A DNA stretch of 24,985 nucleotides from a virus: IMG/VR virus record IMGVR_UViG_3300047673_000133, positions 1 through 24,985 of that record; one strand, given 5' to 3'. Below are positions 127 to 24,985 of this stretch, one piece after another (position 1 is the first letter of the stretch; each line of letters begins with the position of its first letter). The notes below the pieces were generated by a model that saw only the letters and a list, made by a program, of their open reading frames with translations, ran no database searches and was not told where the DNA came from. The translations under genes and the position numbers were made by a program.

Positions 127-1539
127 ATGAGCGAGCATATTACAAAGCGCGGCGGGAGGTACTATTACCGGCGTAGGGTACCCGCTGACCTCATTGAGAA
201 GTACGGTAGGAAAGAGCATACCCAGGCTTTGGGGACAGCGGAGAGGCGGGTAGCAGAAAAGGAGGCGCGTAAAGCGGCTGTCCTACTTGATGAGATTTTT
301 GACAAGCTCCGCGCGGACATGCAGGGGCTAGGTGAGGTAGTTGGCGCACCTATCATGATATCCACGCTACCCGCAAAGGCGTTGTCCTTGGACGAGGTTT
401 TACAGTACGAGGACGCGGAGCGTATCGCCTTGGAGCGGGATGAGGCATTGCGGGATGAGCGAATCGAGGAAATGAAGGATGCAATACGGGGCCTCTCCTC
501 GGAGACCCGCTCGGACTTTCTCCAGCGGCTCACACAGCCCGCCCCCGTTGAGGTTGACATGGGGCCAGCGGTTCCGGCTCCCGCGCCCCTCTCCGCCCCT
601 GTGAGCGAGTCCAAAGGCGGATTCCCGGAGGCTATTAAGGAATGGCAACGCAAGCGGACCCCCGGCCCCGGTGCGGTGGACGGCATGAATTTAACCGTGT
701 CTCGCTTCTTTGAGGTTTGCGGGCGTGTGTCTTTGCAGGCCGTCACGCGGGACCACGTTAAGAAGTACCAAGACCACTACCTAGCGGCGGGTATGAATCC
801 CGGCACGGTGCGTTACTACAGTTCGCTACTTAAGGCGCTGCTAGCGGTGGCGTTCGATTCGGGAATGATAAAGAGTAACCCCGCGTTGGGTGTCAAGCTG
901 GACCGCCCTAAGAAGGCCCCCAAGGCGTCCCGTGTTGCGTTTGCTATGGAGGACGTTAGGGTTATCCTGGACAAGCTACCCACGGCGGGTAACCCGCATT
1001 GGGTACCCTTGGTTAGCCTCTATACAGGTATGCGGCTTGAGGAGATATGTCAGCTTGCCCCGGACGACATTCGAGAAGAAACGTATCGGGACGCTAAGGG
1101 TAAGACCAGGGCGGTGGCGGTTATCTATGCAACGGACGAGGGCGACAACCAAGGACTTAAGAACGCGGGTTCAAGGCGGAAAATCCCTGTGCATCCCGCA
1201 TTGGTGGAGGCGGGGTTTCTGGACTACGCCAAGGGCCAAAGCGGCGGGCGCATATTCCCCGGCCTTAAGGCTAACAAAGCCGGGAGAGAGGGAGCGAACC
1301 TTAGTATTTGGTTCGGCAAATTCCTACGCGAGAAGTGCGAGATTACCGACCCGCGTAAGGTGTTCCACTCGTTCCGCCACCTGTTCAAGGACGTACTCCG
1401 TGAGCATGGCGTAGAGGAGCAAGTTAGCGACGCGCTGACGGGCCACACAAACGGTAGCGTAGGCCGCACATACGGCGGGGACTACTACCCGCTCCGTCCG
1501 CTCGTAGAGGCTGTAAATCAATTTGAGCTACACCTATAG
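127..1539 (+). CDS. int: Tyrosine recombinase (phage integrase)
   Basis: Site-specific recombinase expected to integrate and excise the phage by the tyrosine recombinase mechanism. The N terminus (ITKRGGRYYYRRRVPADL) is the usual start of phage integrases that bind arm-type sites. A core-binding SAM-like domain follows at roughly residues 165-265, and the catalytic domain fills the C-terminal half. The active-site residues are visible: R303 in TGMRLEE, H414 and R417 in HSFRH, H440 in LTGH and the nucleophile Y449 nine residues later. A basic hairpin near GLKNAGSRRK could supply the catalytic lysine. At 470 residues it is somewhat longer than average, with a Pro/Ala-rich linker near residues 145-165. 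The ATG has an AGGA box seven bases upstream. Its stop directly abuts the stop of the convergent gene at 1540. It appears intact and active, unlike the integrase-like protein at 23569. Confidence 0.95.
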   Translation: MSEHITKRGGRYYYRRRVPADLIEKYGRKEHTQALGTAERRVAEKEARKAAVLLDEIFDKLRADMQGLGEVVGAPIMISTLPAKALSLDEVLQYEDAERIALERDEALRDERIEEMKDAIRGLSSETRSDFLQRLTQPAPVEVDMGPAVPAPAPLSAPVSESKGGFPEAIKEWQRKRTPGPGAVDGMNLTVSRFFEVCGRVSLQAVTRDHVKKYQDHYLAAGMNPGTVRYYSSLLKALLAVAFDSGMIKSNPALGVKLDRPKKAPKASRVAFAMEDVRVILDKLPTAGNPHWVPLVSLYTGMRLEEICQLAPDDIREETYRDAKGKTRAVAVIYATDEGDNQGLKNAGSRRKIPVHPALVEAGFLDYAKGQSGGRIFPGLKANKAGREGANLSIWFGKFLREKCEITDPRKVFHSFRHLFKDVLREHGVEEQVSDALTGHTNGSVGRTYGGDYYPLRPLVEAVNQFELHL

Positions 1540-2190: not shown

Positions 2191-2257
2191 TTTACGTACT
2201 CCTACGTTGTTAGGCGTAGCGCCCATGTACGTATCCTCTCACGGGTACCCTTTTAGT

Positions 2258-2271
2258 GTCAATACTTTTGG
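2258..2271. promoter_or_regulatory. Shared control motif, copy 1 (near lysozyme)
   Basis: GTCAATACTTTTGG lies between the divergent 69-residue gene and the lysozyme. The same pattern, GTCAAYACTTTYG, overlaps both divergent -35 boxes at 23434-23447 and 23488-23501. On the minus strand it contains a perfect TTGACA (2257-2262), but no good -10 follows. It may therefore be an operator or phage-specific promoter element rather than a simple sigma70 promoter. A further match, GTACCCTTTT, precedes it here and also occurs in the right-end control region. Confidence 0.5.
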
Positions 2272-6011: not shown

Positions 6012-6032
6012 CAAGTCCTTATCAGTTAATAG

Positions 6033-7508: not shown

Positions 7509-7722
7509 ACTTGCGCCTCATTTTCTTAAGTTTCTTAGCTACGCGTTTGTCAAAGCGGGCATTCTTAATAACCCCGCGCTCTATCAGTAAAAGAACAAAG
7601 GCCACTGTGTCAGCGGCCTCGTCCGTAATTTGGTTTGCGCCCCAATCCTCACGGGCTAGTTTCATGGCGGCTTGTATAAACTCACTCGCCTCCTCTGCTG
7701 CATGTCGGAGTAGGGCTGTCAT
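7501..7722 (-). CDS. Small MazG-like all-alpha NTP pyrophosphatase
   Basis: Protein of 73 residues with the two signature metal-binding motifs of the MazG/PRA-PH superfamily: EEASE at residues 10-14 and DEAAD at 34-38, separated by a helix. It is short, a minimal domain, and ends in a very basic tail (RFDKRVAKKLKKMRRKYG) that could contact nucleic acid. The likely reaction is hydrolysis of a nucleoside triphosphate to monophosphate and pyrophosphate, but the substrate cannot be read from the sequence. It lies directly upstream of, and overlaps by eight bases, the MazZ-family gene, so the two probably act in one pathway. Confidence 0.7.
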   Translation of the reverse strand: MTALLRHAAEEASEFIQAAMKLAREDWGANQITDEAADTVAFVLLLIERGVIKNARFDKRVAKKLKKMRRKYG

Positions 7723-7729
7723 TTAGTTA

Positions 7730-8518
7730 TCAGGAAATGAGGAGGTTTTTACGATGGCCCTTGGAGCTAACCATTACGCGCCCGCGTGACCAATGCCCGC
7801 ATTTGCAGCGGTACCGGGTGTACTGGCCTACTTGAGTACTACGCTTGCCCTTGCGGATAACCTCAGCGCTACCGCATGCGGGGCACTTGTGCGCGCCCTC
7901 GGTACCGTCCTCTTTGTAGTTGGCCACGTTAGGGTGGCCTTGCATCCACGGACGGAGAATGAGATACAACTCCTCAAGGCTGAGAACGTCCTCAATGTTG
8001 TACGCTTTCATTTCCGCCCACGCCTCCGGGTTGCCCTTAAGGCACTCAACCCAAAGAGAAAAGCCGGGGTACTTGCCGTGCTTTAGCTTCTTATGTTGCG
8101 TACAGAGTTTGTCCGTAAGAAACTCCAGCTTTGCAGAGGTCATAGCGAAGTGCTTACGCGCCTCAAGCAACGTATCCACAACCTTAAACGGACTCGGCGG
8201 GAGGAGACCCAGCAATAGAAAGCGCGCTTGAATCTTGCGAACGTCAAACTTCTTACCGTTATGGGCTACGATAATGTCCGCTTGGTCTAGGAGTTTCCAC
8301 AGCTTGCGGACAATGCGGGTGTCATCCTCCTTATTGCGCCGCTTACTATTGTCCTCGTACATAATAGTTTGCTCGCCTAACCACTTTGCGCAAAAGGAGA
8401 GGATGCACCACTCTTTTGTAACTTGACCAAGGCTAAGGTTTTGTTGCCACAGCGACCACACATAACCCATAATCGGGGAGGTTTCGATATCAAGTACTAG
8501 AATGCGCGGTTTATTCAT
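7730..8518 (-). CDS. DEDDy 3'-5' exonuclease with C-terminal zinc ribbon
   Basis: Ribonuclease H-like exonuclease of 262 residues. The four acidic residues are visible: D10 and E12 in VLDIETS, D92 in HNGKKFD, and D177 in YNIEDV, with Y173 giving the DEDDy pattern. This resembles the proofreading domain of DNA polymerases as a free protein. The C terminus adds a zinc ribbon with CPAC and CKC pairs in a basic setting, likely for nucleic-acid binding. The start at 8518 is preferred because it overlaps the previous stop as ATGAATAA; a start 42 bases upstream would add a poorly supported extension. The family DNA polymerase here has its own exonuclease residues, so this may be a recombination, RNA-processing or DNA-degrading nuclease. 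Confidence 0.8.
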   Translation of the reverse strand: MNKPRILVLDIETSPIMGYVWSLWQQNLSLGQVTKEWCILSFCAKWLGEQTIMYEDNSKRRNKEDDTRIVRKLWKLLDQADIIVAHNGKKFDVRKIQARFLLLGLLPPSPFKVVDTLLEARKHFAMTSAKLEFLTDKLCTQHKKLKHGKYPGFSLWVECLKGNPEAWAEMKAYNIEDVLSLEELYLILRPWMQGHPNVANYKEDGTEGAHKCPACGSAEVIRKGKRSTQVGQYTRYRCKCGHWSRGRVMVSSKGHRKNLLIS

Positions 8519-8711
8519 ACTGTGCGGTTGCGTCCTTTGTGATTTGTTCGCGTGCTTCATTTTCGAAGCGGGTAGCGTCTTGGTTGTAAATGTCTATCGT
8601 CACGGTGCGTACGGCCCTAAACTCCGTACCGTCCACGTTGGCTACAATCTCGTAGACCATTAGGCTGTATTGCTCGGTCCAGCCCTTCTTTACCGTCTTA
8701 ATTACTGTCAC
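8511..8711 (-). CDS. Hypothetical 66-residue protein
   Basis: Unrecognised small protein that looks beta-rich in the middle (YEIVANVDGTEFRAVRTVTIDIY) and helical at the end. The start codon is GTG at 8711, overlapping the TGA of the endonuclease VII-like gene as GTGA. Its own stop overlaps the exonuclease start by eight bases. Tight coupling on both sides suggests a real gene acting with the nuclease cluster, but its role is unknown. Confidence 0.6.
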   Translation of the reverse strand: MTVIKTVKKGWTEQYSLMVYEIVANVDGTEFRAVRTVTIDIYNQDATRFENEAREQITKDATAQYE

Positions 8712-9109
8712 GTACTCTCCAACTTCTTAGCCGCTCTTGTGGCCCGCGCTTTAGCATTGCGCTTGATACGGCTAGCCTCCTTCTTTTCCTCAGGTGTTTT
8801 ATGCGTGTGGTGCAAGAGGAACGTAGGGTTATTGTTGAAATGTTCGATATACGCAGCACAGCGGCGCAACACCTCAGGAATAGGGAGACCCGTACCCATT
8901 GCCTTAGCTGCGTTCTCAATCTTGCCCAACCGGCTGTTAGTCCACGTCGCAAGGATCGCGCGGTGAAACCCGGTAATGTGGCAATGGTCGGCGGCGGCTT
9001 TATCAGGCGGGATAGTCCAACCGGATATAGGATCACGTCCGCCTTGCTCGGCTAGCTTGCGCGCCCGGTACTCCGGTAGCTCACTGGCCTTTAATTTTTG
9101 CAAGCTCAT
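8708..9109 (-). CDS. Endonuclease VII-like nuclease (His-Me finger)
   Basis: Protein of 133 residues related to phage recombination endonuclease VII, which resolves Holliday junctions and branched DNA before packaging. The nuclease signature is ADHCHITGFHRAILAT (D41, H42, H44), followed by a conserved Asn (N58) and SRLGKIENAAKAMG. The CxxC zinc pairs of T4 endonuclease VII are replaced: GRDPISG stands before the His-Me finger and no CxxC follows it. As far as I recall, this is how autographivirus members look. The C terminus is very basic, suited to DNA binding. The ATG at 9109 has GGAG five bases upstream, and the gene begins inside the 3' end of the exonuclease gene. Confidence 0.85.
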   Translation of the reverse strand: MSLQKLKASELPEYRARKLAEQGGRDPISGWTIPPDKAAADHCHITGFHRAILATWTNSRLGKIENAAKAMGTGLPIPEVLRRCAAYIEHFNNNPTFLLHHTHKTPEEKKEASRIKRNAKARATRAAKKLEST

Positions 9110-10019
9110 TAAGCTCCTTGGTTACGCGGGTCTCCAGGCGAGCTAACGCCCCCGCAATGTGTTTGCATGGCGGGAATGCCTCAGCGACGTTGGAGAGGGT
9201 TGCTTGAGCGTCCGTACGGAGCCATAGGAGGCCCGCTTGTTCAATCAAGGCGTCAGCCCACACCTCACCGTAATGGTCCTGATACGCGGCTTGTACGCGG
9301 TCATACGCGTCCTCTACGCAAGTGGTCCCGGCTAGATACTTCTCAGCCCGCGCCTCTCCGCACTGTTGGCCGAATAGCTTAGGCAAGCCCGGTATGTGGT
9401 CCGCTCCGTCACCCTGGAGCATTTGGAGATAGAACCACTTAGCCCCGTACTGGAGACCGTCCACGCCTATAACGTCATACGCGCCTACGGGTACCTCGGT
9501 AAGGCTGGAGTCCATCCAATTAATATGGAGACCGGGGAGCATTCGCATATCTTTATCACGGGTCGCAATAACCGTCCGCTTTTGGTGTGCGCAATACGCT
9601 ATCCCGTCGTCCGCCTCCCGCGTTACCCAAACCTTAGGTGTAAAGCGCGGCCCCTCGTAATGCTCAAGTACCTCACGCAGATAGCCCCAATTCTTAGGTC
9701 TACGGGACGCGTTACGCTGGCCTTGGTACTTCTTAACCGTTGCGATTAAGAACCGGTGCGCCTTGGTACAACCGCTAGCGCTTAGGTGTAGCCTTACCGA
9801 CTCCGCCCCACTCTTTAGCCGCATAAGCTCGGTGCGGTCGAATGCGTTTTGGCGCGCCCTTGCTGGCTCGCACTCGTCATTACCCGCCGCGTAATACGCA
9901 AGGTAATCACCGTCTAGGTGCATTTCCAAACCGGGAACGGTACCGGGAAATACTCCCGCGCCAAACTGAGGGGACGACTCGGCGGCTTGTGCTATCAAGC
10001 CCGCTAAGTCAAACGTCAT
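9081..10019 (-). CDS. FEN/PIN-type 5'-3' exonuclease
   Basis: Predicted 5'-3' exonuclease of 312 residues, equivalent in role to T7 gp6: removal of RNA primers and degradation of host DNA. Motifs in order are HLDGDYLAYY (D36), HRFLIATVKKYQGQR, the metal-binding EADDGIA, ATRDKDMRML, and the helix-hairpin-helix region with MLQGDGADHIPGLP. The N-terminal segment MTFDLAGLIAQAAESSPQ precedes the catalytic core and resembles the start of the single-strand binding protein gene at 12016. Its start lies inside the preceding small membrane-protein gene, with GGGAGG ten bases upstream. The endonuclease VII gene begins inside its 3' end. Confidence 0.9.
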   Translation of the reverse strand: MTFDLAGLIAQAAESSPQFGAGVFPGTVPGLEMHLDGDYLAYYAAGNDECEPARARQNAFDRTELMRLKSGAESVRLHLSASGCTKAHRFLIATVKKYQGQRNASRRPKNWGYLREVLEHYEGPRFTPKVWVTREADDGIAYCAHQKRTVIATRDKDMRMLPGLHINWMDSSLTEVPVGAYDVIGVDGLQYGAKWFYLQMLQGDGADHIPGLPKLFGQQCGEARAEKYLAGTTCVEDAYDRVQAAYQDHYGEVWADALIEQAGLLWLRTDAQATLSNVAEAFPPCKHIAGALARLETRVTKELNELAKIKGQ

Positions 10020-10119
10020 GCCGCATCAACCTCCCGATAGCGTAGCCAAGCGCGAAAAACAGTAAGAATTCCACGACGCTAGCGCCCAGAATCCATAGAC
10101 CAATCTCCAATCCTTTCAT
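10009..10119 (-). CDS. 36-residue membrane peptide
   Basis: Short gene encoding MKGLEIGLWILGASVVEF followed by a second hydrophobic run (LLFFALGYAIG) and a basic end, RLMRHDV. It predicts a single transmembrane helix with a cytoplasmic positive tail. Its ATG overlaps the stop of the upstream gene as ATGA, and its stop overlaps the exonuclease start by 11 bases, so it fits the operon's spacing pattern exactly. The function is unknown; a small membrane anchor or host-membrane effector is possible. Confidence 0.6.
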   Translation of the reverse strand: MKGLEIGLWILGASVVEFLLFFALGYAIGRLMRHDV

Positions 10120-10289
10120 GTCTCAGCAACCTCCCGCGCCAGCGCTGCTACAAGCTCCGTAGCGGCTGCGGCAAGCTGTACAGCGGTCTCAAGAGACTCC
10201 GCAGTACCTCCGGCGCATGTACTATGGTTCAACTCCTTAAAGCGCTTGCCTACGTTGATTAGCGCCTCGGCTGAGTTATTAGCCCTCAT
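10116..10289 (-). CDS. Hypothetical 57-residue helical protein
   Basis: Unrecognised protein, mostly helical and Ala/Glu-rich in its second half (AVQLAAAATELVAALAREVAET). The ATG at 10289 overlaps the TGA of the PP-loop gene (ATGA), and its own TGA overlaps the next ATG the same way. There are no catalytic motifs. The amphipathic C-terminal helix may be an oligomerisation or binding segment. Confidence 0.55.
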   Translation of the reverse strand: MRANNSAEALINVGKRFKELNHSTCAGGTAESLETAVQLAAAATELVAALAREVAET

Positions 10290-11170
10290 GTAGATGCCTC
10301 CGTCTCGAACACTTCGCAACTCTCTGAACAGCCCGCGTCCCTATCCGCGTCACTAGGCGTAGGTGCCTGGCCGTCTTTAAGCTCTTGGTGTAGCCTGAAA
10401 AGATCGTTGGTCGAGCGGTTACCGCGAAAGAAAACGCGCGGCTTTCCATCGTTGGTACGCGCTCCGCTAAAGCCGTGTTGCTCCTCCATGCGGCGAGGAA
10501 AGTCGTAAATCTCCGGGCGTTCCGAGATAAGCCGCATGTGTTTAGACAGGGATTTTTTCCAACACCATTTACAGTTGCCCTCATGCTCCTGTAACCCTAG
10601 CTGGAACGGCTGTTGTTTCCACCACTCATTTACGTCTTGTTTATCAGTGGGAAACATATCAACTAGCGGGTAAATGATCCGCTCCGCGCTAGCGGACGCC
10701 TTGACTCTACGCGGCTCGTCCTCCCGGATACCTATAGCGGTGTCGTAGCTACCAGGGCCCCAACCGATCGAGCGCAAATAGGACCGCATTGGCCTAAGTT
10801 TTAACTCGCGGTTGCACGGCTGGAACACCACGTTAGGTACGCCGTACTTGCGTATAACCTCCTCGTATGGCTCTCCCTTGCGGCTTGCCGTCGCATAGGT
10901 GACAACGCGGTGAGTAGTGCCTACGCCCGCCCCTGGGTGTACTACCGCCTCAAGCCATACGGTTTTAAAACCAAACACCTCGTCACACATATGCACGAAT
11001 CTAAGGGTTCTCTCGTCCTCCTCTCCGGTGTTAGCGAACGTCACCCGGATATCGTGGGTGTCTCCAAATTTATCGAGCAATAGCTTTGTCATGAGGCCCG
11101 AAGTCTGTCCGCCGCTAAAGCTAATTGCCAAGCGGGGACGGCTAAGGACCGTATAAGCGGTCCTTGCCAC
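10286..11170 (-). CDS. PAPS reductase-like PP-loop ATPase
   Basis: Protein of 294 residues in the adenine-nucleotide alpha-hydrolase (PP-loop) superfamily, annotated in many phages as PAPS reductase. The PP-loop SFSGGQTSG is at residues 17-25, followed by VTFANTGEEDERTL. A Cys pair (GNCKWCWKKS) near residue 200 could hold a metal or a persulfide. The usual chemistry is adenylation for sulfur or amide transfer, but real substrates in phages are mostly unknown; tRNA or nucleotide thiolation and DNA modification are candidates. The start is GTG at 11170, only three bases beyond and in the same frame as the TAA of the upstream gene, with AAGGAG partly overlapping it. This suggests termination-reinitiation. 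Confidence 0.75.
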   Translation of the reverse strand: MARTAYTVLSRPRLAISFSGGQTSGLMTKLLLDKFGDTHDIRVTFANTGEEDERTLRFVHMCDEVFGFKTVWLEAVVHPGAGVGTTHRVVTYATASRKGEPYEEVIRKYGVPNVVFQPCNRELKLRPMRSYLRSIGWGPGSYDTAIGIREDEPRRVKASASAERIIYPLVDMFPTDKQDVNEWWKQQPFQLGLQEHEGNCKWCWKKSLSKHMRLISERPEIYDFPRRMEEQHGFSGARTNDGKPRVFFRGNRSTNDLFRLHQELKDGQAPTPSDADRDAGCSESCEVFETEAST

Positions 11171-11173
11171 TCC

Positions 11174-12016
11174 TTAGCCCATACTCGCCAACGGGTCCAC
11201 GCTAGCCGCGTTCTCCGGTACCTCGTCACGCTCCGGCGTCTCTGCGTCCGGGATATCCGCCTCAGGTGTGCCCTCCGGCATAGCGGCAAGAGCGGCCAGC
11301 GGGTGAGCCGTCCAATTCTTAGCCTTCATAATGCGTTCCTGAAGAACGTTCTTAGAGCGCTTGGGGCTGATAACCTCGCCCTTATCGTTCTTACGCTCGT
11401 CGTAGAAGCCAGGGATATGGAGGCTGTCCCACATAGCCTTAGTACCCAAATCCCAAATGAACGCCTTAAGCTCGGTGATTGCGGGCGCAACCTCAACATT
11501 AACCATGTCACCCGTAACCACGTCTTGCACTGTGGTACCACGGAAGTTATAGCCGTTCGCTCCCTTGAGGTTGGCGTAGGTTTTCTTGCCGTCCGCGCTC
11601 TTGCGGTGGAATACCTCTACGATAAAAGGCTTACCCAGCAATTGCGCCATGTGCGTAGCCGTTCCGCCGTGCGCTTGGTTCATTGCGGAGAACAGCTTAA
11701 AGAAGTTAGCGCGGTCGCTAAAGCTCAGTGTCTCTTGGACCGTGATACGGTGCGGAATAAGCGTACCGTCATCCAACTTACGCGGCTGGTGGTTCGGGCC
11801 GGAAAGCTCAAACACGAGGTCAACCTTGTCACGGAGGACCAACTTACCGGCCATGTTTTCCTCTTCATGCTTGCCAAGCTCAAAGTAACCAACAAGGCGC
11901 GCACGGGCCATACCCGTGGCTGGCGGTTGGTACTCTGCACTTTGCTTAACTTGGGTCATATCCGGACCCGTCTTAGCGGCTTGTGCGATAACGTCAGCGA
12001 GATTAAATTGAGTCAT
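11174..12016 (-). CDS. Probable single-stranded DNA-binding protein
   Basis: Protein of 280 residues placed directly after DNA polymerase, as the single-strand binding protein often is in phiKMV-like phages. The central region (about 35-220) looks like a beta-rich OB-type domain with many aromatic and basic residues. It ends in an acidic, proline-rich tail (about 245-270) and the tip SVDPLASMG. Acidic C-terminal tails are typical of SSB proteins and recruit partners. The first residues, MTQFNLADVIAQAAKTGP, resemble the start of the FEN exonuclease. The leader carries TAGGACTAC about eight bases before ATG. Assignment rests on position, tail and size; I see no signature that proves it. Confidence 0.6.
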   Translation of the reverse strand: MTQFNLADVIAQAAKTGPDMTQVKQSAEYQPPATGMARARLVGYFELGKHEEENMAGKLVLRDKVDLVFELSGPNHQPRKLDDGTLIPHRITVQETLSFSDRANFFKLFSAMNQAHGGTATHMAQLLGKPFIVEVFHRKSADGKKTYANLKGANGYNFRGTTVQDVVTGDMVNVEVAPAITELKAFIWDLGTKAMWDSLHIPGFYDERKNDKGEVISPKRSKNVLQERIMKAKNWTAHPLAALAAMPEGTPEADIPDAETPERDEVPENAASVDPLASMG

Positions 12017-12049
12017 ATAAGTGTAGTCCTAACTAATTGGTAGATTTAT

Positions 12050-14455
12050 TTAATGAAGGAATGACGGCGTGTAACCGCTCATGTATTGCTGTCTTAGTTC
12101 AACGCGGAATTTATCGGCGCATGCTTCAAAGTCCCCCGTAAATTTGCGCTCTTGCATCATGTTGTCTCCGTGTACCGTGACACTCGGCACAGGGACGGGA
12201 ATAGTCCAACCGAAGTACCATTCCATAAAGTCGCTAGCGGCCAACATGCAAGCATGTAGAAGCGCGCTTGACTCTACGAGTACCTCCTTTTGTGCGTCCG
12301 CGTACAAGGCGTCATGCACCTGATTTACGAGCAAGGCCCGATGGTTGAAATTCTTACGGGCATAGAAGGCGCGGATAGAGAGCCACATAGCCGCCTTAGC
12401 CCATTCCCCGCCAGTCCCTTGGACCTCGTAGTTAGCGATTTCCGTAGGGCTAAAGCCTTGCGGTTGTGGCGTGGGCTGTCCCGGCCTCGGCTTGCGCCTA
12501 AGCAACCAACCCGGCGTAGGTGACTCCCGATAGCTATAGACCTTGTTATCAGGCGTAACGCTAAAGCCCTTACCAAGCTGGCACATAAGGCCGTCAATGT
12601 CCGGGTGCGGCTGTACGTTTTGCGTGGGTCGGCGGCTACGTTTGATCCGTTCCGTCTTTTTGCGGTTGTACTCCTCAAGCTCTGGATACCGCTCATTTTC
12701 AGCCTTAATCAACGCCTCTACGTCCTCAAGGCTCATACCTGTGGTCTCCGCAATCTTTGCGGCTCCCGCACCGTACGCACGTTGGAACGAGAATTCCTTA
12801 GCGCCTTGTCGCTTCTTAGGCCAGCCCTCACGCGGCGCAATGCCGTTAGCCTCGTCACCCTTACACCAAAGCAAAGCCTCCGCGTACGTCACGCCCTCTT
12901 TCTGGCTAACGCGTACGCAGTGCATATCAAGGCCAGCATTCAAGTCCGCAATAAGCTGGACACAGCCGCTTAGAATCGCCTGGACGTACACCTCAAGAGA
13001 GGTAAAGTCAGATTGGACAATTTGGCCGTTCGCACCAAAGCGCGACTCAAAGACTAGCTTGACTTGTGACTTGCCCTCCTTAGGCACATTCTGGAGGTTA
13101 GGGTTAGACGAGGAGAAACGCGCCGTAACCGTGGACGTGTGGTTAATGCTGTGGTGGATAATTGAGTCAATCCCCACAAGGGTAAGCATCCCCTTAGCCT
13201 CACCCGTCTTTTCGTCAACCGTGACGTAATACGTACCAAGGTCTTTAGTGAGGTTCGCTACACCCGCCAGCGTCTTTAGGAACGGGATATCTCGATTACC
13301 CAACGCCTCGATAACCTCACCCGCTACGCTGTACAGTCCGTCCGTGCTACTGGCCCACTCCTCCTTAGGCGCGGTGTGTCCCGGAAACTCATAATAGAAG
13401 TCACGCATAGCGGTTTTAGGTCCGCGCGCAATGTCATCTACTTTGATTTTCTTTGTCTTAAGCTCACCCGCGTTCTTACCACTGAGATAGCGGAGCGGCT
13501 CCGGTGGATGCGCCAACCCGTGCCACTCGTCCTTAAGCATGGTCTTATGCTCGACCTTGCCGTCTACCATCCCCTTTTCGTGCTTGAGGTAGATAACCTC
13601 AGCGTCCAATTTGTAATAGACGGGGTTACCCTCCTCGTCTGTTACTACGGTGCGCTTTTGATACTTAACCTTACCGCCAAAGATAAGCGGGCTAAGGTGG
13701 TACCGATTCGACCAATTGAAGTCAAACGGGAGCGCGTCCGGGAGGTACCCGCGTAGCTCGGTGGTAATCTCCTCCAGCTTGCGCGTTAGTTCGGAGGCGA
13801 GCTTTACGCCCAACTCACGATTAACATACATGCCGTTCCGTTCCATTTCAACGGTACACAGCAAGCTACCCATGTTGAGGAGGATAGATTTAACCTGACC
13901 CGTCTTACGCGCCTTGGCAAGCTGGCCTAGAAAAATCGTTTCTGTGTTACCGATATCCCCTAGCCCGCTATCGTCTCCGCACAGGTACCGCATGAGTAAA
14001 TCGCGGTCAATGTCTACTGTGTCAATCCCCGCATTCCATAGCGCCTTAACCTCGTCAATCTTGAGGCTACCGCCATACGCGGGGACCATATCGTCCATTG
14101 AGAGCATTTGGGAGTTAGGCTCCATCCCTCGGAGCAAGTACTCCGCAAGTTGGCAATCCCAGACATTTCCGCCGCGTGCTACAAACTCCATCCACGCCTC
14201 TAAATTCTGAGGCTCACGCAGCGCGTACAACAAGTCAAACTTGATATTGACGCCAACAAGTATCGTTGTGTCTTTTAGCAGTTTTGTAAACCAGTCAAAG
14301 GGGCGAGTACCGCGTCCGAAGTATTCGCCAAAGACTTTCGTGTCTTTACGTTTCCAGCCGCTAGCCACAGGGAAGTTATCCGCAAGGAACGGGCTAGCCT
14401 TGCGTTTCATGTAGCTCTTAATTGTTGTCTCGATATCCCAAACGCAGTAACTCAC
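12050..14455 (-). CDS. Family A DNA polymerase with 3'-5' exonuclease
   Basis: Replicative DNA polymerase of 801 residues. The exonuclease domain begins at once with WDIET (D7, E9), and VGVNIKFDL is the second exonuclease motif. Polymerase motif A is SDFTSLEVY with D483, motif B is RQGAKEFSFQRAYGAG with R549, K553 and Y561 at the standard spacing, and motif C is VHDALYAD with D715. Motif C has Ala where E. coli Pol I and T7 have Glu after HD. The start codon is GTG, with the recurrent TAGGACTAC leader box overlapping the stop of the upstream gene. Its position after ligase and HD hydrolase and before the probable SSB is standard for this phage group. It is expected to need helicase, primase and possibly a host processivity factor. 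Confidence 0.95.
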   Translation of the reverse strand: MSYCVWDIETTIKSYMKRKASPFLADNFPVASGWKRKDTKVFGEYFGRGTRPFDWFTKLLKDTTILVGVNIKFDLLYALREPQNLEAWMEFVARGGNVWDCQLAEYLLRGMEPNSQMLSMDDMVPAYGGSLKIDEVKALWNAGIDTVDIDRDLLMRYLCGDDSGLGDIGNTETIFLGQLAKARKTGQVKSILLNMGSLLCTVEMERNGMYVNRELGVKLASELTRKLEEITTELRGYLPDALPFDFNWSNRYHLSPLIFGGKVKYQKRTVVTDEEGNPVYYKLDAEVIYLKHEKGMVDGKVEHKTMLKDEWHGLAHPPEPLRYLSGKNAGELKTKKIKVDDIARGPKTAMRDFYYEFPGHTAPKEEWASSTDGLYSVAGEVIEALGNRDIPFLKTLAGVANLTKDLGTYYVTVDEKTGEAKGMLTLVGIDSIIHHSINHTSTVTARFSSSNPNLQNVPKEGKSQVKLVFESRFGANGQIVQSDFTSLEVYVQAILSGCVQLIADLNAGLDMHCVRVSQKEGVTYAEALLWCKGDEANGIAPREGWPKKRQGAKEFSFQRAYGAGAAKIAETTGMSLEDVEALIKAENERYPELEEYNRKKTERIKRSRRPTQNVQPHPDIDGLMCQLGKGFSVTPDNKVYSYRESPTPGWLLRRKPRPGQPTPQPQGFSPTEIANYEVQGTGGEWAKAAMWLSIRAFYARKNFNHRALLVNQVHDALYADAQKEVLVESSALLHACMLAASDFMEWYFGWTIPVPVPSVTVHGDNMMQERKFTGDFEACADKFRVELRQQYMSGYTPSFLH

Positions 14456-14467
14456 GTATCAGTAGTC

Positions 14468-15016
14468 CTATTTAGTCAGTTCAGTAAAACGCAACATGAA
14501 ACGGAGGTAAGCCTCGCGGGACGGTTGCGGATAGACACGCTTTCTAACCGGCTCGATACCCCGCGCCCATGACCAAGCAATCATGTCCGTAGCGTGAAAC
14601 TCCGGGCGAGGCTTAGGCATCAAATCCCGCCTCTCAGTAACAAGCATGCGGAGGTCCGCTTGTTTGACGCACGGGTCCAACGGGTACGCCAACCCAAAGC
14701 GCGCACAGATAGCCCCCTCTACGCGTTGCTCAATCGCTTTGTACTCCGGGACGAGTTGCTTAAGGGGGCTATTCATGTCCGCCATGTACGCCTCAGAGGC
14801 GTCATGCAAGAGACCCGCTAAGGCATGCTCAGGCGGTACCAAGTCGGAGACGGCTACGCTGTGTTGGGCAACGCTGTAAAAGTCCCGTGTGTGGCCCGTA
14901 AAGCGGTTTTGACGGCTCAGCGCGTGGGCTATGTCCTCGATATCGATCATGTCCGCCGTGGGGCGGGAAAAGTCGAAGTATCGGCCCGTAGCCGTGAGGA
15001 TTTGCGGAGGGATCAC
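14468..15016 (-). CDS. HD-domain phosphohydrolase (YfbR/DatZ-like)
   Basis: Metal-dependent HD hydrolase of 182 residues. The HD ligands are visible as H52 in VAQHS, H71-D72 in LLHDAS and a later Asp in KQADLRML, with the family-typical DFSRPTADMIDIEDIAHALS opening. Members act on deoxynucleotides: host YfbR is a 5'-deoxynucleotidase, and DatZ of Z-DNA phages is a dATP triphosphohydrolase of this same broad family. Substrate choice cannot be decided here. The start is GTG, overlapping the upstream TGA as GTGA. Lying directly before DNA polymerase, it probably tunes the dNTP pool together with the two pyrophosphohydrolases at 6993-7722. Confidence 0.8.
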   Translation of the reverse strand: MIPPQILTATGRYFDFSRPTADMIDIEDIAHALSRQNRFTGHTRDFYSVAQHSVAVSDLVPPEHALAGLLHDASEAYMADMNSPLKQLVPEYKAIEQRVEGAICARFGLAYPLDPCVKQADLRMLVTERRDLMPKPRPEFHATDMIAWSWARGIEPVRKRVYPQPSREAYLRFMLRFTELTK

Positions 15017-15156
15017 TGTTTAGCCTTATTAAAGTCCGTATACGCCTCTGTGGGTGTACTACCCACTCCGCAACGGTAATCCGTACCTCTACGAAACGCG
15101 CAGTACCAGCGTCCCATGCTGTAGTACTTTGACGAGTACCAAATGTGCGGTCTCAT
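15013..15156 (-). CDS. Hypothetical 47-residue Tyr/Cys-rich protein
   Basis: Unrecognised short basic protein (MRPHIWYSSKYYSMGRWY...) with many Tyr, Trp and Arg and two Cys, probably a compact beta structure. The start at 15156 overlaps the upstream TGA as ATGA, which is why it is chosen over longer in-frame forms. Its stop overlaps the HD hydrolase start as GTGA. Confidence 0.6.
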   Translation of the reverse strand: MRPHIWYSSKYYSMGRWYCAFRRGTDYRCGVGSTPTEAYTDFNKAKQ

Positions 15157-15377
15157 TGCTCGGGACCGTCCACAATGTAGCGGACCGCTTTCTCCATATC
15201 GGCCAGCGTGTACCACGCACCCGGCAGCGTTCCCAACGTCATAAACACACGCTCTCGTACACCTCTCTCATATGTCTCCGTGGCACGCTGCGAGGCGGCA
15301 TTACTAAGCCCTGAGATTTGGGTACGCAGTGCTAAAATTTGGCCTTCAAGTTGTGCAATCTTTTCACGCGTGTCCAT
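15153..15377 (-). CDS. Hypothetical coiled-coil protein
   Basis: Protein of 74 residues. The N-terminal third (REKIAQLEGQILALRTQI) has a heptad pattern consistent with a short coiled coil; the rest looks like a small helical, winged-helix-sized domain (MTLGTLPGAWYTLADMEKAV). The ATG overlaps the ligase stop as TAATG, and GAGGA is seven bases upstream. It could be a dimeric DNA-binding or adaptor protein, but no family is recognised. Confidence 0.6.
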   Translation of the reverse strand: MDTREKIAQLEGQILALRTQISGLSNAASQRATETYERGVRERVFMTLGTLPGAWYTLADMEKAVRYIVDGPEQ

Positions 15378-16309
15378 TAGGTATCCTCAATGTGGCGAAA
15401 CGATTTAAAGACGGGGTGGCGTGGAGCCTCTTTAATCCCGTGGTCAAAGTATTTAAACGTTACGAGTTGGTCTACAATTTCATGGCGGTTAGCCCAAAAC
15501 TCCGCCCGCTGCGAGGCTGTAAAGCCAGTGCCGATATTGAACGTGGTTCCGTCCGGGTCGTCAGCAAAACGAACAACCAACGCCCCTAGAGTGCCTTTAC
15601 CTACTAGGCCGTCCTTTGCTGTGCTGCGTTCCGTGTTGCCCAAGGCGTCCCGCTTAGCCTCGTTGGTGTTATGCATTTCCTCAACGTAGCCCACTACCTC
15701 AGCCTCAGCGTCTACGAATCGCTTAACCTTAACTAGTCCGCCCTCCCGCTCCGTACTACGTCCGCACTTATATAGGGCGTGTGGGGAGCGAATCATTAGG
15801 CCCTCGTAGCCCTGCTCAAGGAATTGAGCCTCAAGCGTAGCTAGCTCCTCATGACTCGTAACGCTGTGTTGCGGAACGCCTCCAATGCAGTCCGTCATTA
15901 GCTCGTCCAACACCATATGGCATACGGATTGCTCCGCCGCGTCTAGTCGGTCGTCGTAGGGTTGGATTCCGTTAATAGTCTCCGCACCTACCTTATCGAA
16001 CACGTAAAACTTAAACTCAGGCTCTCCGGACTTGCGCATAACGGCCATGCTGTTTTGCATACAGTTCGGGTCCGTGGGGCTACCTACAACTAGCTCGCCG
16101 TCCAGGCCCTCTAGTACGTCCCCATACTCCTTAAAGAACCGCTGTACAAATTCGTTCGGAATAGGTTTGAGGCTACGGCTATACGCAACCCCGCCAAACA
16201 CCACGCAGCGGATACCGTCAATCTTTGGCGAGGCCCACACGGGAAACTTGATTAGCTCCGGCTTGGTGAGCGTCGCGGCTAAGTTGGGGCGGAATCCAGC
16301 CGGGACCAT
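15377..16309 (-). CDS. ATP-dependent DNA ligase
   Basis: Nick-sealing ligase of 310 residues, close to the size of other T7-like phage ligases. Motif I is SPKIDGIR with the adenylated lysine K29; motif III is near GLDGELVVG; motif IV is EGLMIRSP; motif V is GLVKVKRF. A C-terminal OB-type domain follows from about residue 215. The ATG overlaps the stop of the upstream lipoprotein gene as TAATG and has no strong ribosome site of its own, so expression is probably coupled. It joins Okazaki fragments made by the primase and polymerase of this operon. Confidence 0.93.
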   Translation of the reverse strand: MVPAGFRPNLAATLTKPELIKFPVWASPKIDGIRCVVFGGVAYSRSLKPIPNEFVQRFFKEYGDVLEGLDGELVVGSPTDPNCMQNSMAVMRKSGEPEFKFYVFDKVGAETINGIQPYDDRLDAAEQSVCHMVLDELMTDCIGGVPQHSVTSHEELATLEAQFLEQGYEGLMIRSPHALYKCGRSTEREGGLVKVKRFVDAEAEVVGYVEEMHNTNEAKRDALGNTERSTAKDGLVGKGTLGALVVRFADDPDGTTFNIGTGFTASQRAEFWANRHEIVDQLVTFKYFDHGIKEAPRHPVFKSFRHIEDT

Positions 16310-16713
16310 TAGCGGCGGCTCCGGAACGAACCAAACGAGGAACTACGCGAGGAGCTATAGCTCGGACGGCTGTAGCTATACGAGGGGCGCGGCGTGTACA
16401 CCGTGCGCGGAGCAACACGGGTAACGTTGGTTACGCTCCGATTAATCACGGTGGTATTTCGGCTGTAACCGCCTCCACCTCCGCCGCTCATGAGGTGACC
16501 CATGAGCATCCCCGTAAAGAACCCGTCATTAGCGGGCGCTGGGGCGGCCTGTACAACCGTCACAGGGGCTTGCATGGGCTGAGCCATAACGGCGGCTTGG
16601 GGAGGCTGTGCGTAGGTCACAGGGGCGCTATTGTCAGTGCAGGCAGCTACGAGGCCGATGGCAAGAATGCCGGAGATACCGATTACAAAAATGGTGCGTT
16701 GTGATTTGGTCAT
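16309..16713 (-). CDS. Small low-complexity lipoprotein
   Basis: Predicted lipoprotein of 134 residues. A signal peptide (ISGILAIGLVAAC) ends in a lipobox with C25 as the lipidated residue. The mature protein is low in complexity: a Pro/Ala/Gln/Val-rich stretch, a Gly run (GGGGGG near residue 80), and a Ser/Arg/Tyr-rich basic tail (SYSRPSYSSSRSSSFG). No enzyme motif is visible. An envelope protein inside the replication operon, between helicase and ligase, is out of place functionally and suggests a moron-like insertion or a host-envelope effector such as a superinfection-exclusion protein (inference). It overlaps both neighbours (ATGA and TAATG), so it is fully integrated into the operon. 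Confidence 0.7.
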   Translation of the reverse strand: MTKSQRTIFVIGISGILAIGLVAACTDNSAPVTYAQPPQAAVMAQPMQAPVTVVQAAPAPANDGFFTGMLMGHLMSGGGGGGYSRNTTVINRSVTNVTRVAPRTVYTPRPSYSYSRPSYSSSRSSSFGSFRSRR

Positions 16714-18005
16714 GCAATCTCCGTAGGCATAAGTAAGCGGCCTCGGTCTCCGTCAAAGAGAACCTCCGCCTGTGGTGATTTGGGTTGTCCAGCGCGCGCG
16801 AGCTTATTTTTGGTAAGCCCAATCCAGCGGGTTTTGTCGTAGAACGGGTCATTGCTTGACCCAAGGGTAATGATTGCGTCAGCCGCGCCTTGCTTACCCG
16901 TTTTGGAGTCCTTAAGCATTGGGAGCGTAGGAAACGTGAGGCCGTCACCGTCAGCGCTAATCTGTGAGTTTGCGATTACCGGCGTGTTGTACTTAACCGC
17001 CATGAGTCGCGCCCACTGATACATAGCCTCTAGCAATTGGTCCGTACGTTGTCCGCCGTTGAGGGCGGAGCCGCTAAACTTGATGTTGTCCACCATGTCA
17101 AACACAACCAAGCCAGGAGGACAGCGGCGCATAATGTCCTCGACCTCGTAGCTATAAAAGTCGTGAATATCCATAACGCGGATACGATCAATCCCGCCAA
17201 CGGCGGCGGCGTACGCACTCCGAATCTCGCCCTTCTGCGTGAGCTTGATTAGGTCTGCGGTAGTGGCGTTAAGTGCTGACTGGTAGATACGGCTAACGAT
17301 GCGTCTACCCGGCCCCTCATTGTTAAACCACAGGACGTAACGCCCGTGGTCGGGACCGTAGTACGTGTCAAACTGTTTAGCCATGTGTGCGACCTCGCTA
17401 GCTACAAACGTGGTCTTACCCTTATCGGGTCGCGCAGCTAACACAATGAAGTCACCCGGCCTAACCGGACGCATGCACAAGTTAAGACAGTCAAGGCGGA
17501 AATGTAACCCCGCGTCGTCTTTGTCGTCCTGGAGTATCTCCTCAATGTCGGTATCGACCCAGGGCAACTTACCCTTACGTGACGTGTTAGTCTCGTAGCG
17601 GGTCATTTCCTCGCGTAGCGCTATGTAGAGGTCAATCTCCTCTCCGGACTCGTACCGCGTAACCAAGTCGGTAATACGGTGCGCCGTCTCCGCTGCGAGT
17701 AAGCGCTCCATAATCCCGGACTCTAGCGCGGGGTCGCAATCCTCGCTAAATACCCCGCCTAGATACGTCCGATATAGGGCTAGTTGCTCTGCGGTTAGCG
17801 TGGGGTGTGCGAACGTTCCGAACCACAACATAAAGGGGTCCAGCTCGATTCGCTCAACGCCCTCCATTTCCGCAAAAAACTTACCGAAGTCCTCAAGGAT
17901 TACCTTGCTCTTTTCCTCAAGCGCTACCTTGGGTACCGCCTTTGCTAACCGCTCGTACCGTTCCTTGTACTTGAACAGACGTAAAAGCGTAATTTCCAAT
18001 GACAT
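16710..18005 (-). CDS. Replicative DNA helicase (DnaB/T7 gp4-like)
   Basis: RecA-fold hexameric helicase of 431 residues that unwinds the fork. The N-terminal 150 residues are a helical region like the primase-binding part of DnaB-type helicases. The ATPase core has Walker A ARPDKGKTTF with K197, Walker B LVVFDMVD with D303, and a later VIANSQIS segment matching motif H3. It lacks a primase domain, which is encoded separately at 18478. The ATG at 18005 follows an AAGGAGTAC leader box. Its stop overlaps the lipoprotein start as ATGA. Confidence 0.92.
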   Translation of the reverse strand: MSLEITLLRLFKYKERYERLAKAVPKVALEEKSKVILEDFGKFFAEMEGVERIELDPFMLWFGTFAHPTLTAEQLALYRTYLGGVFSEDCDPALESGIMERLLAAETAHRITDLVTRYESGEEIDLYIALREEMTRYETNTSRKGKLPWVDTDIEEILQDDKDDAGLHFRLDCLNLCMRPVRPGDFIVLAARPDKGKTTFVASEVAHMAKQFDTYYGPDHGRYVLWFNNEGPGRRIVSRIYQSALNATTADLIKLTQKGEIRSAYAAAVGGIDRIRVMDIHDFYSYEVEDIMRRCPPGLVVFDMVDNIKFSGSALNGGQRTDQLLEAMYQWARLMAVKYNTPVIANSQISADGDGLTFPTLPMLKDSKTGKQGAADAIITLGSSNDPFYDKTRWIGLTKNKLARAGQPKSPQAEVLFDGDRGRLLMPTEIA

Positions 18006-22610: not shown

Positions 22611-22970
22611 CTAATAGTTTGTACGACTATTACCCGTTGCTCGGTCAAGCGTGAATATTCGCGGCTGTACGATAGCGCGGACCGATGTAGTACCCGCGTT
22701 GTATCCGCGCGCCTCAATAGCCTTGACTACACGGGCCAGCTTACGCGGGCTTACGCGACTAAGGTCTAGAGCATCGTTGTGCCCTACTCCGGTCTTTGCG
22801 GGTATAAAGTCGCACGCGTCAGCCAACCTACTCGTCTTAGTCTCTCCGAATGCCGGAGACTTGTAACGGTCATGGTTTATCTTGCGTTTGGGCTTTTGTG
22901 CTGACGCGGGCAATCGCTCCGCCTGAGGTGATGCTAGCGGCGTACGTTGGTCAATGGTAAAGCGAGACAT
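22611..22970 (-). CDS. First gene of the early operon, hypothetical basic protein
   Basis: Unrecognised 119-residue protein, basic and probably partly disordered at the N terminus (ASAQKPKRKINHDRYKSP), with a more structured C-terminal half (LSRVSPRKLARVVKAIEARG and a beta-like end). It is the promoter-proximal gene of the minus-strand operon, following a roughly 300-base leader. The AGGAGG ribosome site is the strongest in the operon but can pair with an upstream CTCCTA. First early genes of T7-like phages often counter host defences or host functions; that role here is inference. Confidence 0.6.
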   Translation of the reverse strand: MSRFTIDQRTPLASPQAERLPASAQKPKRKINHDRYKSPAFGETKTSRLADACDFIPAKTGVGHNDALDLSRVSPRKLARVVKAIEARGYNAGTTSVRAIVQPRIFTLDRATGNSRTNY

Positions 22971-22998: not shown

Positions 22999-23281
22999 AC
23001 TCAATACGAATCACCTAACCTAACCTTTCGGTCAGTCCCTCCAGCTATTAACCTTTGGGCCATCGTCACTTGGAGTACTCAGGTTGCCCCTCTTACGAGA
23101 CACATTGCCTAAGGTCACTGTAATACACGCGCCTTGCGCTACAGCTAACGACTTCAACAGTAATACCCTTGCATTCCCGGCTGAGGCTCAAGCAATTCCC
23201 CAGGAGGCTACTCACGGATTGGGCATCCGGTCATTACTACTTGTTGCACCCGTTACAGTTCGTAACAAGTACGCAGGCCGA
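22999..23281 (-). other. Long non-coding leader of the early operon
   Basis: This stretch of about 280 bases lies between the proximal minus-strand promoter and the first early gene. No credible gene is present: minus-strand ATGs give at most 18 codons without a ribosome site, and the 104-codon plus-strand frame at 23084-23398 starts at TTG with no ribosome site. An 8-base palindrome GAGTACTC lies at 23073-23080. It may encode a structured leader or small RNA, but no known class was recognised. Confidence 0.35.
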
Positions 23282-23310
23282 ATGTTAGCTAGGTCACATA
23301 CGGGTGTCAA
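23282..23310 (-). promoter_or_regulatory. Sigma70-like promoter for early operon (proximal)
   Basis: Read on the minus strand, TTGACA (23305-23310) and TAACAT (23282-23287) are separated by 17 bases. The -35 is perfect and the -10 matches 4 of 6. It would begin a leader of about 300 bases before the first early gene. Confidence 0.55.
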
Positions 23311-23409
23311 CAGTTTTGTTGAATCGTTTACTTCCCGCCTACAACCCTGTGTCCCTAGCCGCTTCCCGCCTTGGTCGCCGCGTTTGCTACCGCGCTGACC
23401 ACGGAACGA

Positions 23410-23438
23410 AATGTACGTGAGTACACCTAAGACGTCAA
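23410..23438 (-). promoter_or_regulatory. Sigma70-like promoter for early operon (distal)
   Basis: On the minus strand, TTGACG (23433-23438) and TACATT (23410-23415) are 17 bases apart. The -35 lies within the shared motif at 23434-23447. The inverted repeat TGTAC/GTACA (23412-23425) overlaps the -10 side, a possible operator. It is back-to-back with the plus-strand promoter at 23497. Confidence 0.5.
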
Positions 23439-23447
23439 CACTTTTGC
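23434..23447. promoter_or_regulatory. Shared control motif, copy 2
   Basis: GTCAACACTTTTGC on the plus strand overlaps the -35 box of the distal minus-strand promoter. It matches copy 1 near the lysozyme and, in the opposite orientation, copy 3 at 23488-23501. Confidence 0.5.
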
Positions 23448-23490
23448 GATAGTACTAACCCTATGCGTATTTTGCGTACCCTTTTTTGCG
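23442..23490 (+). repeat. Three TTTTGCG direct repeats
   Basis: TTTTGCG occurs at 23442-23448, 23470-23476 and 23484-23490, all in one orientation, with starts 28 and 14 bases apart. They sit between the two divergent -35 boxes. Such spaced repeats are typical of binding sites for a regulator or of integrase arm sites. Confidence 0.5.
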
Positions 23491-23501
23491 AAAGTATTGA
23501 C
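23488..23501. promoter_or_regulatory. Shared control motif, copy 3
   Basis: GCGAAAGTATTGAC is the reverse complement of the pattern GTCAAYACTTTYGS seen at 2258 and 23434. It overlaps the -35 box of the plus-strand promoter of the integrase-like gene, so one binding protein could control both divergent promoters. Confidence 0.5.
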
Positions 23502-23525
23502 AACAAAACCTTACCCCTGTAATGT
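23497..23525 (+). promoter_or_regulatory. Sigma70-like promoter of integrase-like gene
   Basis: A perfect TTGACA (23497-23502) and TAATGT (23520-23525, 4 of 6) lie 17 bases apart and about 44 bases before the ATG at 23569. It would give a short leader and is likely to work with host polymerase, as expected for a gene expressed in lysogeny or immediately after infection. Confidence 0.65.
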
Positions 23526-23568
23526 AGCGCGCGTACGGTCAAACAAACAACTACAGGAGCATAACCAT

Positions 23569-24474
23569 ATGCCTAACATCGTCACTAAATACGGGACGGA
23601 CGGAAAAGTAAGCTATCAGGCGATTGTGCGCGTTGATAAGGCTAGACCCGTTAAGAAATCATTCCCTACATTGGAGGAGGCTGAGACTTGGCGCGTTGCT
23701 AAGGACGCTGAGCTACGCCTCCTAAAGACGCTCCCGGCATATGAATTTACCTTTAGGGAGGCCGCTGAGGACTACTCACTTTACTATCCCGCCGTGTCTA
23801 AGGAATTGTTAGCTCTCCTGGACGAAACTTGCGAGCGCGCAATTGTAGATATCACAGAGGGATGTATTGAGAACGTCCAAGACTCGGACCTAGACGTTAT
23901 CGAGTCCGTAATTGAACATTCCCGTAGACACATGGGCGTAGTCGTTCCTGTTAATCCCGTGGTGAGCTTGCGTGCACGCCGCCTTAATCTCCCGTACAGA
24001 CCGATTACGCAGTTTGAGGAGGACGCGCTTATAAACGGAGCCAAAGACTTGGCTAATGGATGCTTGCAAGACGTTCTAATACTCGCGCTAGATACCGGAC
24101 TGGTACAGCAAGAGATTATTGACCTCGGTAATAGCAACGTTGATTTAGAGGCCGGTGTTATCTGTATGAGCGAGACTCGTACAATAGAGCTAACAGCCCG
24201 TGCTAAGACTATCCTAGCCCGTAGATTTGAATATAACAAGCGTGAATTCTCGAATAACACGCAAGTATTCCCGTACCTCCAAAAGAACACAGCCCAAACG
24301 TCATTTATCCGCCTTAGAGCTAAACTCGGTCTTAATGGGCCGGATTTTAACGACCTCCGAAAGATTGCAATTCATAGATTATCTGAGAAGCTCAGCATTC
24401 CCGCACTCAAGGACGCTCTTGGTTATGCCAAGTATGATTCCCTAGACTGGTTACTCAACCTCAAGCAATCATGA
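23569..24474 (+). CDS. Catalytically degenerate integrase-like protein, possible regulator
   Basis: Protein of 301 residues with the layout of a phage tyrosine recombinase. It has an arm-binding-type N terminus (SYQAIVRVDKARPVKKSF, then LEEAETWRVAKDAEL), a reduced core-binding region and a catalytic-fold C-terminal half. The active site is almost entirely lost: the first Arg of TGxR is V179 (DTGLVQQE), the His of HxxR is N261 (only R264 of NDLR remains), the LGH histidine is Y286, and the nucleophile position nine residues on is L295. It should bind DNA but not cut it. The ATG at 23569 has AGGAG nine bases upstream, and a good sigma70-like promoter precedes it. It is divergent from the early operon, the usual place of a phage repressor, so a regulator or accessory recombination factor is the favoured inference. 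Confidence 0.75.
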   Translation: MPNIVTKYGTDGKVSYQAIVRVDKARPVKKSFPTLEEAETWRVAKDAELRLLKTLPAYEFTFREAAEDYSLYYPAVSKELLALLDETCERAIVDITEGCIENVQDSDLDVIESVIEHSRRHMGVVVPVNPVVSLRARRLNLPYRPITQFEEDALINGAKDLANGCLQDVLILALDTGLVQQEIIDLGNSNVDLEAGVICMSETRTIELTARAKTILARRFEYNKREFSNNTQVFPYLQKNTAQTSFIRLRAKLGLNGPDFNDLRKIAIHRLSEKLSIPALKDALGYAKYDSLDWLLNLKQS

Positions 24475-24694: not shown

Positions 24695-24711
24695 ATGGTT
24701 AAACCCTTGGT
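24679..24711 (+). promoter_or_regulatory. Hairpin enclosing the HNH gene start
   Basis: ACCAAGG (24679-24685) pairs perfectly with CCTTGGT (24705-24711), looping out 19 bases that contain the ATG at 24695. The left arm includes the AAGG of the ribosome site, so translation of the endonuclease may be repressed in this RNA form. Confidence 0.5.
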
Positions 24712-24985
24712 GTCTCCCCGCTTACGCGGTAGCAAAGGAGTAGCTCAACGTAAGCGTATTAGAGAGAGAGATAATTACCAATGTGTTAAGTGTAGGATAG
24801 CTGTATTAGTTGGTGAGGTAGACCATATTCAATCACTAGAGGATGGCGGCTCTAATGATGATAGGAATATGCAACTTCTATGTACTAGGTGTCATGTTAG
24901 AAAGACAGCTAATGATAGAGGATATGTATTAACCACTGGTACTAACATAGATGGTAATCCGACTAATCCTAACCATCATTGGAAT
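24695..24985 (+). CDS. HNH endonuclease (3' end beyond window)
   Basis: The frame stays open to the window edge, giving the first 97 residues. The HNH nuclease core is complete: a basic helix (RLRGSKGVAQRKRIRERD), a first zinc pair in YQCVKC, the catalytic VDHI, then GGSNDDRNMQLLCTRCH with the conserved Asn, second zinc pair and last His. Small HNH proteins of this type are either homing endonucleases or partners of terminase in cos cleavage; terminase genes, if present, would lie to the right. The gene is visibly more AT-rich than the rest of the window, suggesting recent acquisition. AAGGA lies eight bases before the ATG but can be locked in a hairpin. Confidence 0.88.
   Translation, partial: MVKPLVSPRLRGSKGVAQRKRIRERDNYQCVKCRIAVLVGEVDHIQSLEDGGSNDDRNMQLLCTRCHVRKTANDRGYVLTTGTNIDGNPTNPNHHWN

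Follow-up and report, generated by a model that had tools for sequence, protein, structure and literature searches.

The window analysed here, a stretch of 24,985 nucleotides from IMG/VR virus record IMGVR_UViG_3300047673_000133, represents only about half of a ~47-kb genome and carries a homologue of the tyrosine recombinases at 23569..24474 on the plus strand. The reading frame is unbroken from the ATG at 23569 to the stop codon at 24472-24474 and encodes a protein of 301 amino acids with an N-terminal beta-beta-beta-alpha domain (residues 1-54), core-binding-like helices (62-138) and a catalytic-domain fold (148-296). The protein matches Pfam Phage_integrase (PF00589) over the cut-off (E 1.8e-7) and the PHROGs integrase family phrog_1 (5.5e-13). 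Its AlphaFold2 model, for which 17 homologue sequences served as input (pLDDT 85.7, pTM 0.72), is matched by Foldseek to XerA, lambda Int, Tn1549 Int, HP1 Int and P2 Int with a probability of about 1.00. With both a core-binding and a catalytic-domain fold in the predicted structure, it belongs to the tyrosine-recombinase fold superfamily. When aligned with 12 active integrases, all of which carry R, E, H (Y in one), R, H and Y, it presents V179, E182, N261, R264, Y286 and L295 at the catalytic positions. Arg I (V179), the beta-hairpin Lys, His II (N261), His III (Y286) and Tyr (L295) are lost, so that R264 alone survives from the catalytic set R, K, H, R, H/W, Y, with E182 also kept. An active tyrosine recombinase requires the full set, and the product of 23569-24474 is in that sense catalytically dead. 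Nor does it qualify as a CI/LexA-type repressor, as Pfam detects neither an HTH nor a Peptidase_S24 domain within it.

The dead gene sits in a constant gene order, in which a leftward early operon (primase, DnaB-like helicase, PolA and, further on, a phage RNA polymerase) is followed by the divergent dead gene, HNH, TerS, TerL and portal. Seven relatives, 46.8-48.5 kb long, were read from end to end, and the terminal repeats of G001, G006 and G010 are consistent with completeness. In the window, the first gene of the early operon lies at 22611..22970 on the minus strand and the operon, with its primase, helicase, DNA polymerase and phage RNA polymerase, ends at 3693. The HNH gene (24695..24985, plus strand) lies 3' of the locus and is truncated by the window end, with TerS and TerL next in relatives. 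A DUF6538-type integrase at 127..1539 on the plus strand, ~22 kb from the dead gene, is catalytically complete, with R, E, H, R, H and Y in the alignment, and is assigned by Pfam, alignment and tree to a lineage distinct from the dead protein. Several early ORFs lack a known domain, and those early ORFs of the window that were scanned showed neither an HTH nor an S24 domain.

The genome as a whole is mosaic (window 3693-18005 and relatives), with phage RNA polymerase and replication genes that resemble those of Autographiviridae-type podoviruses joined to an HK022-like TerL; PolA stands at 61% to that of Burkholderia phage JG068 and TerL is about 63% identical to HK022. The early operon also includes a PAPS-reductase-like gene (PF01507, 10286-11170) and a dATP/dGTP diphosphohydrolase-like gene (PF18909, 6993-7508). 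Adjoining the lysozyme gene is a putative lipoprotein of unknown role (2823-3617), which has a signal peptide followed by a Cys-Gly-rich stretch and is kept in several relatives at 45-67% identity.

Upstream of the dead gene lies PR, a rightward sigma70-type promoter (23497..23525, plus strand; TTGACA at 23497-23502, a 17-bp spacer and TAATGT at 23520-23525). A ribosome site, AGGAG at 23555-23559, precedes the ATG, and a promoter is present at the same place in relatives. Two leftward promoters occupy the minus strand, PL1 at 23410..23438 (TTGACG, 17 bp, TACATT, with TGTACT seven bases after the -35 box) and PL2 at 23282..23310 (TTGACA, 17 bp, TAACAT). Strong divergent sigma70-type promoters are general to the genomes that carry the dead gene, here called dead-type; each has one or two that face left, and most also have one that faces right and lies about 50-75 bp ahead of the gene. 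A candidate operator, the dyad TGTAC-GTGA-GTACA, lies inside PL1 (23412..23425) and recurs in G001, G002 and G008. A candidate second operator, the dyad GTTAC-AGTTC-GTAAC, lies in the PL2 leader (23252..23266), and GTTAC-N5-GTAAC is also present in G001 and G002. An earlier note, made from the sequence alone, had described a recombinase fold with V179, N261, Y286 and L295 at catalytic positions and R264 retained, an intact frame behind a good promoter and ribosome site, and a second, fully catalytic integrase at 127-1539. All of these claims held, the fold by Pfam, PHROGs and AlphaFold2/Foldseek, the residues and the second integrase by alignment, and the frame and its signals by sequence. Its statement that no conventional CI/Cro-type gene is visible in the window held for the domains and ORFs scanned.

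About 20 homologues occupy an equivalent locus at 28-76% identity. The first IMG/VR search returned six at 58-75% identity and a profile added four, and the distant subfamilies L066, L068, L119 and L159-L166 were reached through terminase neighbours and their own scans. Across an alignment of 17, in which identity to the window protein spans the same range, N261, D262, R264, E182 and G285 are invariant. The Arg I position is V, T, A, S or M in every aligned member and His II, the His of the HxxR motif, is Asn in all of them; the LGH and Tyr positions vary between subfamilies. As L066 still retains an LGH-like motif and a Tyr, we infer that Arg I and His II, whose loss is common to the family, were probably the first to go. 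The dead proteins group into a single clade that excludes active integrases (support 97/98), with the integrases of Pseudomonas phage PAJU2, Mannheimia phage PHL101 and Burkholderia phage Paku as the nearest catalytic relatives in the tree, and their dN/dS is 0.06-0.17. Family-wide residue loss, one clade and purifying selection of this strength show that the dead gene belongs to an old, maintained family and is not a recent pseudogene, which rules out recent decay of an integrase. Descent by duplication of the phage's own integrase is likewise ruled out, as the tree separates the two lineages. Among the homologues examined at the locus, none has an intact active site. Two scans of genome contigs revealed no dead-type prophage copies in bacterial genomes, and plasmid matches were distant integrases only. 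One dead-type homologue comes from L164 (IMG/VR 2816332285_000001), a contig whose style of identifier points to an isolate genome, not a metagenome, and which may offer a route to a culturable host.

Retrieval through TerL (about 80% identical) yielded relatives in which the same locus, on the same strand and between the same flanking genes, is occupied by a repressor of unrelated fold (L069-L077, L080 and L081). In these CI-type repressors Peptidase_S24 is matched at E 4e-9 to 2e-19 and HTH_3/CI only weakly. Of 25 records, 11 have S24 and 13, all without S24, have the dead recombinase; the remaining one is a fragment with neither, and no record has both. The TerL tree places the exchange between CI and dead types as one event, and 11 versus 13 should therefore not be read as 24 independent observations. 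A standard repressor elsewhere in dead-type genomes was sought and not found, with no HTH_3 match over the cut-off in the 10 dead-type records scanned and no S24 in the complete or near-complete relatives either. Whole-record profile searches can miss weak members, as PF00589 missed the dead gene of G004, and such absence is therefore not absolute. Operator-like repeats of CI-type relatives differ from those of the dead type (TCTACCGA, CCATTGGGAA). In L076, which is S24-type, an ORF 5' of the repressor (4433-5206) was recognised by eye as resembling BRO-type antirepressors. Near-identity searches with CI-type DNA in plasmids and phages gave no match, and the only host clue from one flank was a short Burkholderia match. 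Among the checks that the earlier note had proposed, those based on sequence comparison fall in its favour: no homologue with an intact active site shares the locus, the losses of Arg I and His II are conserved across aligned members, homologues keep their position divergent from the early operon, and no conventional repressor was detected elsewhere by the S24 (0/13 dead-type records) and HTH_3 (10 records) searches.

Within the clade of the window, the switch-region promoters share a spacer motif. TG(T/C)AC(C/T) is found in the spacers of 10/13 switch-region promoters versus 8/40 promoter-like sites elsewhere, and several of those eight, all with a perfect TTGACA, lie near the lysozyme gene and the lysogeny module. 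The extended pattern TTGAC(A/G)-N6-9-(T/G)G(T/C)AC(C/T) matches 31 times in eight window-clade genomes, where local shuffling predicts 2.35, and not once in six S24-type or distant dead-type genomes, where 1.98 are expected. Its register is fixed: when offsets 0 to 59 after TTGACA are compared, (T/G)GTACC occurs 13 times at 7, once at 6 and five times over the rest of the range. The window has clear copies of the motif in PL1 and, as TTGACA-N7-GGTACCC, between the lysozyme gene and the leftward ORF 1981-2226 (2243..2262, minus strand), but degenerate ones in PL2 and PR. The stretches that the earlier note had put forward for binding, 23400-23530 and 2250-2280, hold or overlap this motif; there are no binding data. 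Same-genome repeats are weak in dead-type switch regions, apart from the -35 boxes, and clear in CI-type ones. The cross-genome, fixed-register test was informative. In G010 and G012, whose dead protein is 31% identical, both PL and the promoter of a PrtN-like gene (PF11112, 1.3e-29) close to the integrase carry TGGGCC seven bases downstream of TTGACA, and PR has a related GGCCCC. The PrtN-like gene runs from 1575 onward in L140 (G010) and lies around record position 24299 in L147 (G012); it might be an excision-type gene under the same repressor as PL. Motif and protein subfamily co-vary, which is consistent with the dead protein reading the motif and no proof of it, and the motif could belong to another protein.

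In three relatives (G004, G005 and G008) tblastn detects no integrase, yet the dead gene is kept. At their integrase locus, between the tail genes and lysozyme, stand a ParA-type ATPase and an HTH_36 protein (G005, L040-L042, 41656-43324; G004, L037-L039, 24160-25828; G008, L047, 1950-3591). This arrangement, which resembles that of phage-plasmids, suggests that close relatives persist as plasmids instead of integrating. Since the dead gene is kept without an integrase, it is not merely an accessory of integration, a role that should not outlast the loss of the integrase. Members of the dead family also coexist with unrelated integrase types.

We consider it likely that the dead recombinase is a domesticated, non-catalytic protein that acts as the lysogeny (immunity) repressor of its phage. 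The strongest functional evidence is comparative and its reading inferential, namely that collinear relatives have an S24 repressor at the same locus. That the dead protein binds the motif, and that binding represses, are inferences, as is a temperate life, which is deduced from the integrase, ParA and the exchange at the repressor locus. In the proposed mechanism, the dead protein would be made rightward from its own sigma70 promoter and would probably bind short sites between the -35 and -10 boxes of PL1 and PL2. There it would occlude sigma70 RNA polymerase, possibly at PR also, and the shut-off of PL1 and PL2 would withhold the replication genes and the phage RNA polymerase. It would probably act as well at its own promoter and at the promoter in the lysogeny/lysozyme region. 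The lytic programme would thereby be kept off while the genome exists as an integrated prophage or, in some relatives, as a ParA-bearing plasmid. The CI/LexA-type repressors of L069-L077, L080 and L081, presumed to do the same job, carry an S24 autocleavage domain and presumably allow SOS-type induction. As the dead protein lacks this domain, we infer from known CI/LexA biology that induction should not proceed through RecA-stimulated self-cleavage; an antirepressor is, by inference, the more likely route. Of the readings offered by the earlier note, that of a lysogeny repressor is supported by comparative evidence, with repression itself inferred, and that of a recombination accessory is not supported as the main role. 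Its view that the protein is retained for DNA binding is supported by dN/dS as to retention, with binding inferred.

Alternative roles must be weighed against this model. The dead protein could be an accessory of the 127-1539 integrase, such as a directionality factor or a non-catalytic subunit at att sites, as its recombinase fold, its arm-binding-like N-terminal domain and the presence of both proteins in some records would allow. We regard this as very unlikely. An accessory should occur with an integrase and depend on it, and retention in the three integrase-free relatives largely refutes the idea; the dead family is also found alongside unrelated integrase types, its gene lies far from the integrase and an S24 repressor substitutes for it in relatives. 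A functionless, decaying former integrase would explain the lost catalytic residues and the drift of the LGH and Tyr positions between subfamilies, but is all but excluded because the gene is under purifying selection, with unbroken frames, invariant N261, D262, R264 and E182, and a fixed locus and promoter.

Harder to dismiss, and still unlikely in our judgement, is another early DNA-binding role, as activator, Cro-like regulator or replication/partition-site protein, in which case the true repressor would be a small early protein that has escaped recognition. Many early ORFs lack a known domain, no binding data exist for the dead protein, and the long, promoter-rich non-coding region before the gene could also hold an origin. 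Against this, the repressor of CI-type relatives occupies exactly this locus, the strong divergent promoters with their shared spacer motif fit repression, and the dead gene persists alongside an integrase and alongside ParA alike.

A precedent for the lysogeny-repressor reading is MrpR (YopR), the master repressor of Bacillus subtilis prophage SPbeta (PMC10516654, PDB 8A0A). MrpR has a recombinase fold without recombination, with Arg I replaced by Val/Ser and His II by Asn (PMC10516654, Table 3), and represses its phage through a 15-bp repeated promoter element; its authors suspected a wider recruitment of recombinase-fold repressors (PMC10516654). The dead protein meets the MrpR-like definition of a recombinase fold with losses that include Arg I and the His, and in both cases the recombinase function is lost and the phage has a separate recombinase for integration. 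However, MrpR begins with the core-binding domain whereas the dead protein has an extra N-terminal beta-beta-beta-alpha domain, MrpR keeps a Tyr important for DNA binding where the dead protein has Leu, and its site and early-region layout are unlike those of the window phage. MrpR (8A0A) is absent from PDB profile matches to E 10 and from the 50 Foldseek matches examined, and a shared repressor ancestor is therefore not indicated. The dead family is thus probably a second, independent domestication of the MrpR type, with the repressor role itself inferred. Its nearest catalytic relatives, the integrases of PAJU2 and PHL101 (about 30% identity to dead subfamily L119) and of Paku, carry R, E, H, R, H and Y, whereas in the dead family at least Arg I and His II are gone and the gene stands at a repressor locus. 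In the literature searched, we found no report of this phage group and no recombinase-fold lysogeny repressor other than MrpR.

A bolder reading, which we offer only as a possibility, is that lysogeny repressors have repeatedly arisen from dead recombinases and still assemble in the multivalent manner of recombinases. Protomers bound at the switch region might then pair with others at the lysogeny module, some 21 kb distant, in a non-covalent synapse, a DNA loop that co-represses the early genes and, in some relatives, the PrtN-like gene, and that is released without SOS cleavage. The simpler repressor model, if true, would itself establish a second lineage of recombinase-fold repressors, derived from arm-domain integrases in a different phage group. 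Relatives with an S24 repressor swapped in, and relatives with the integrase replaced by a plasmid-partition module, provide natural controls. A repressor without an autocleavage domain raises the question of how such prophages are induced. An integrase match alone is a poor indicator of integration, and as such genes are readily annotated 'integrase', repressors of this kind may be missed.
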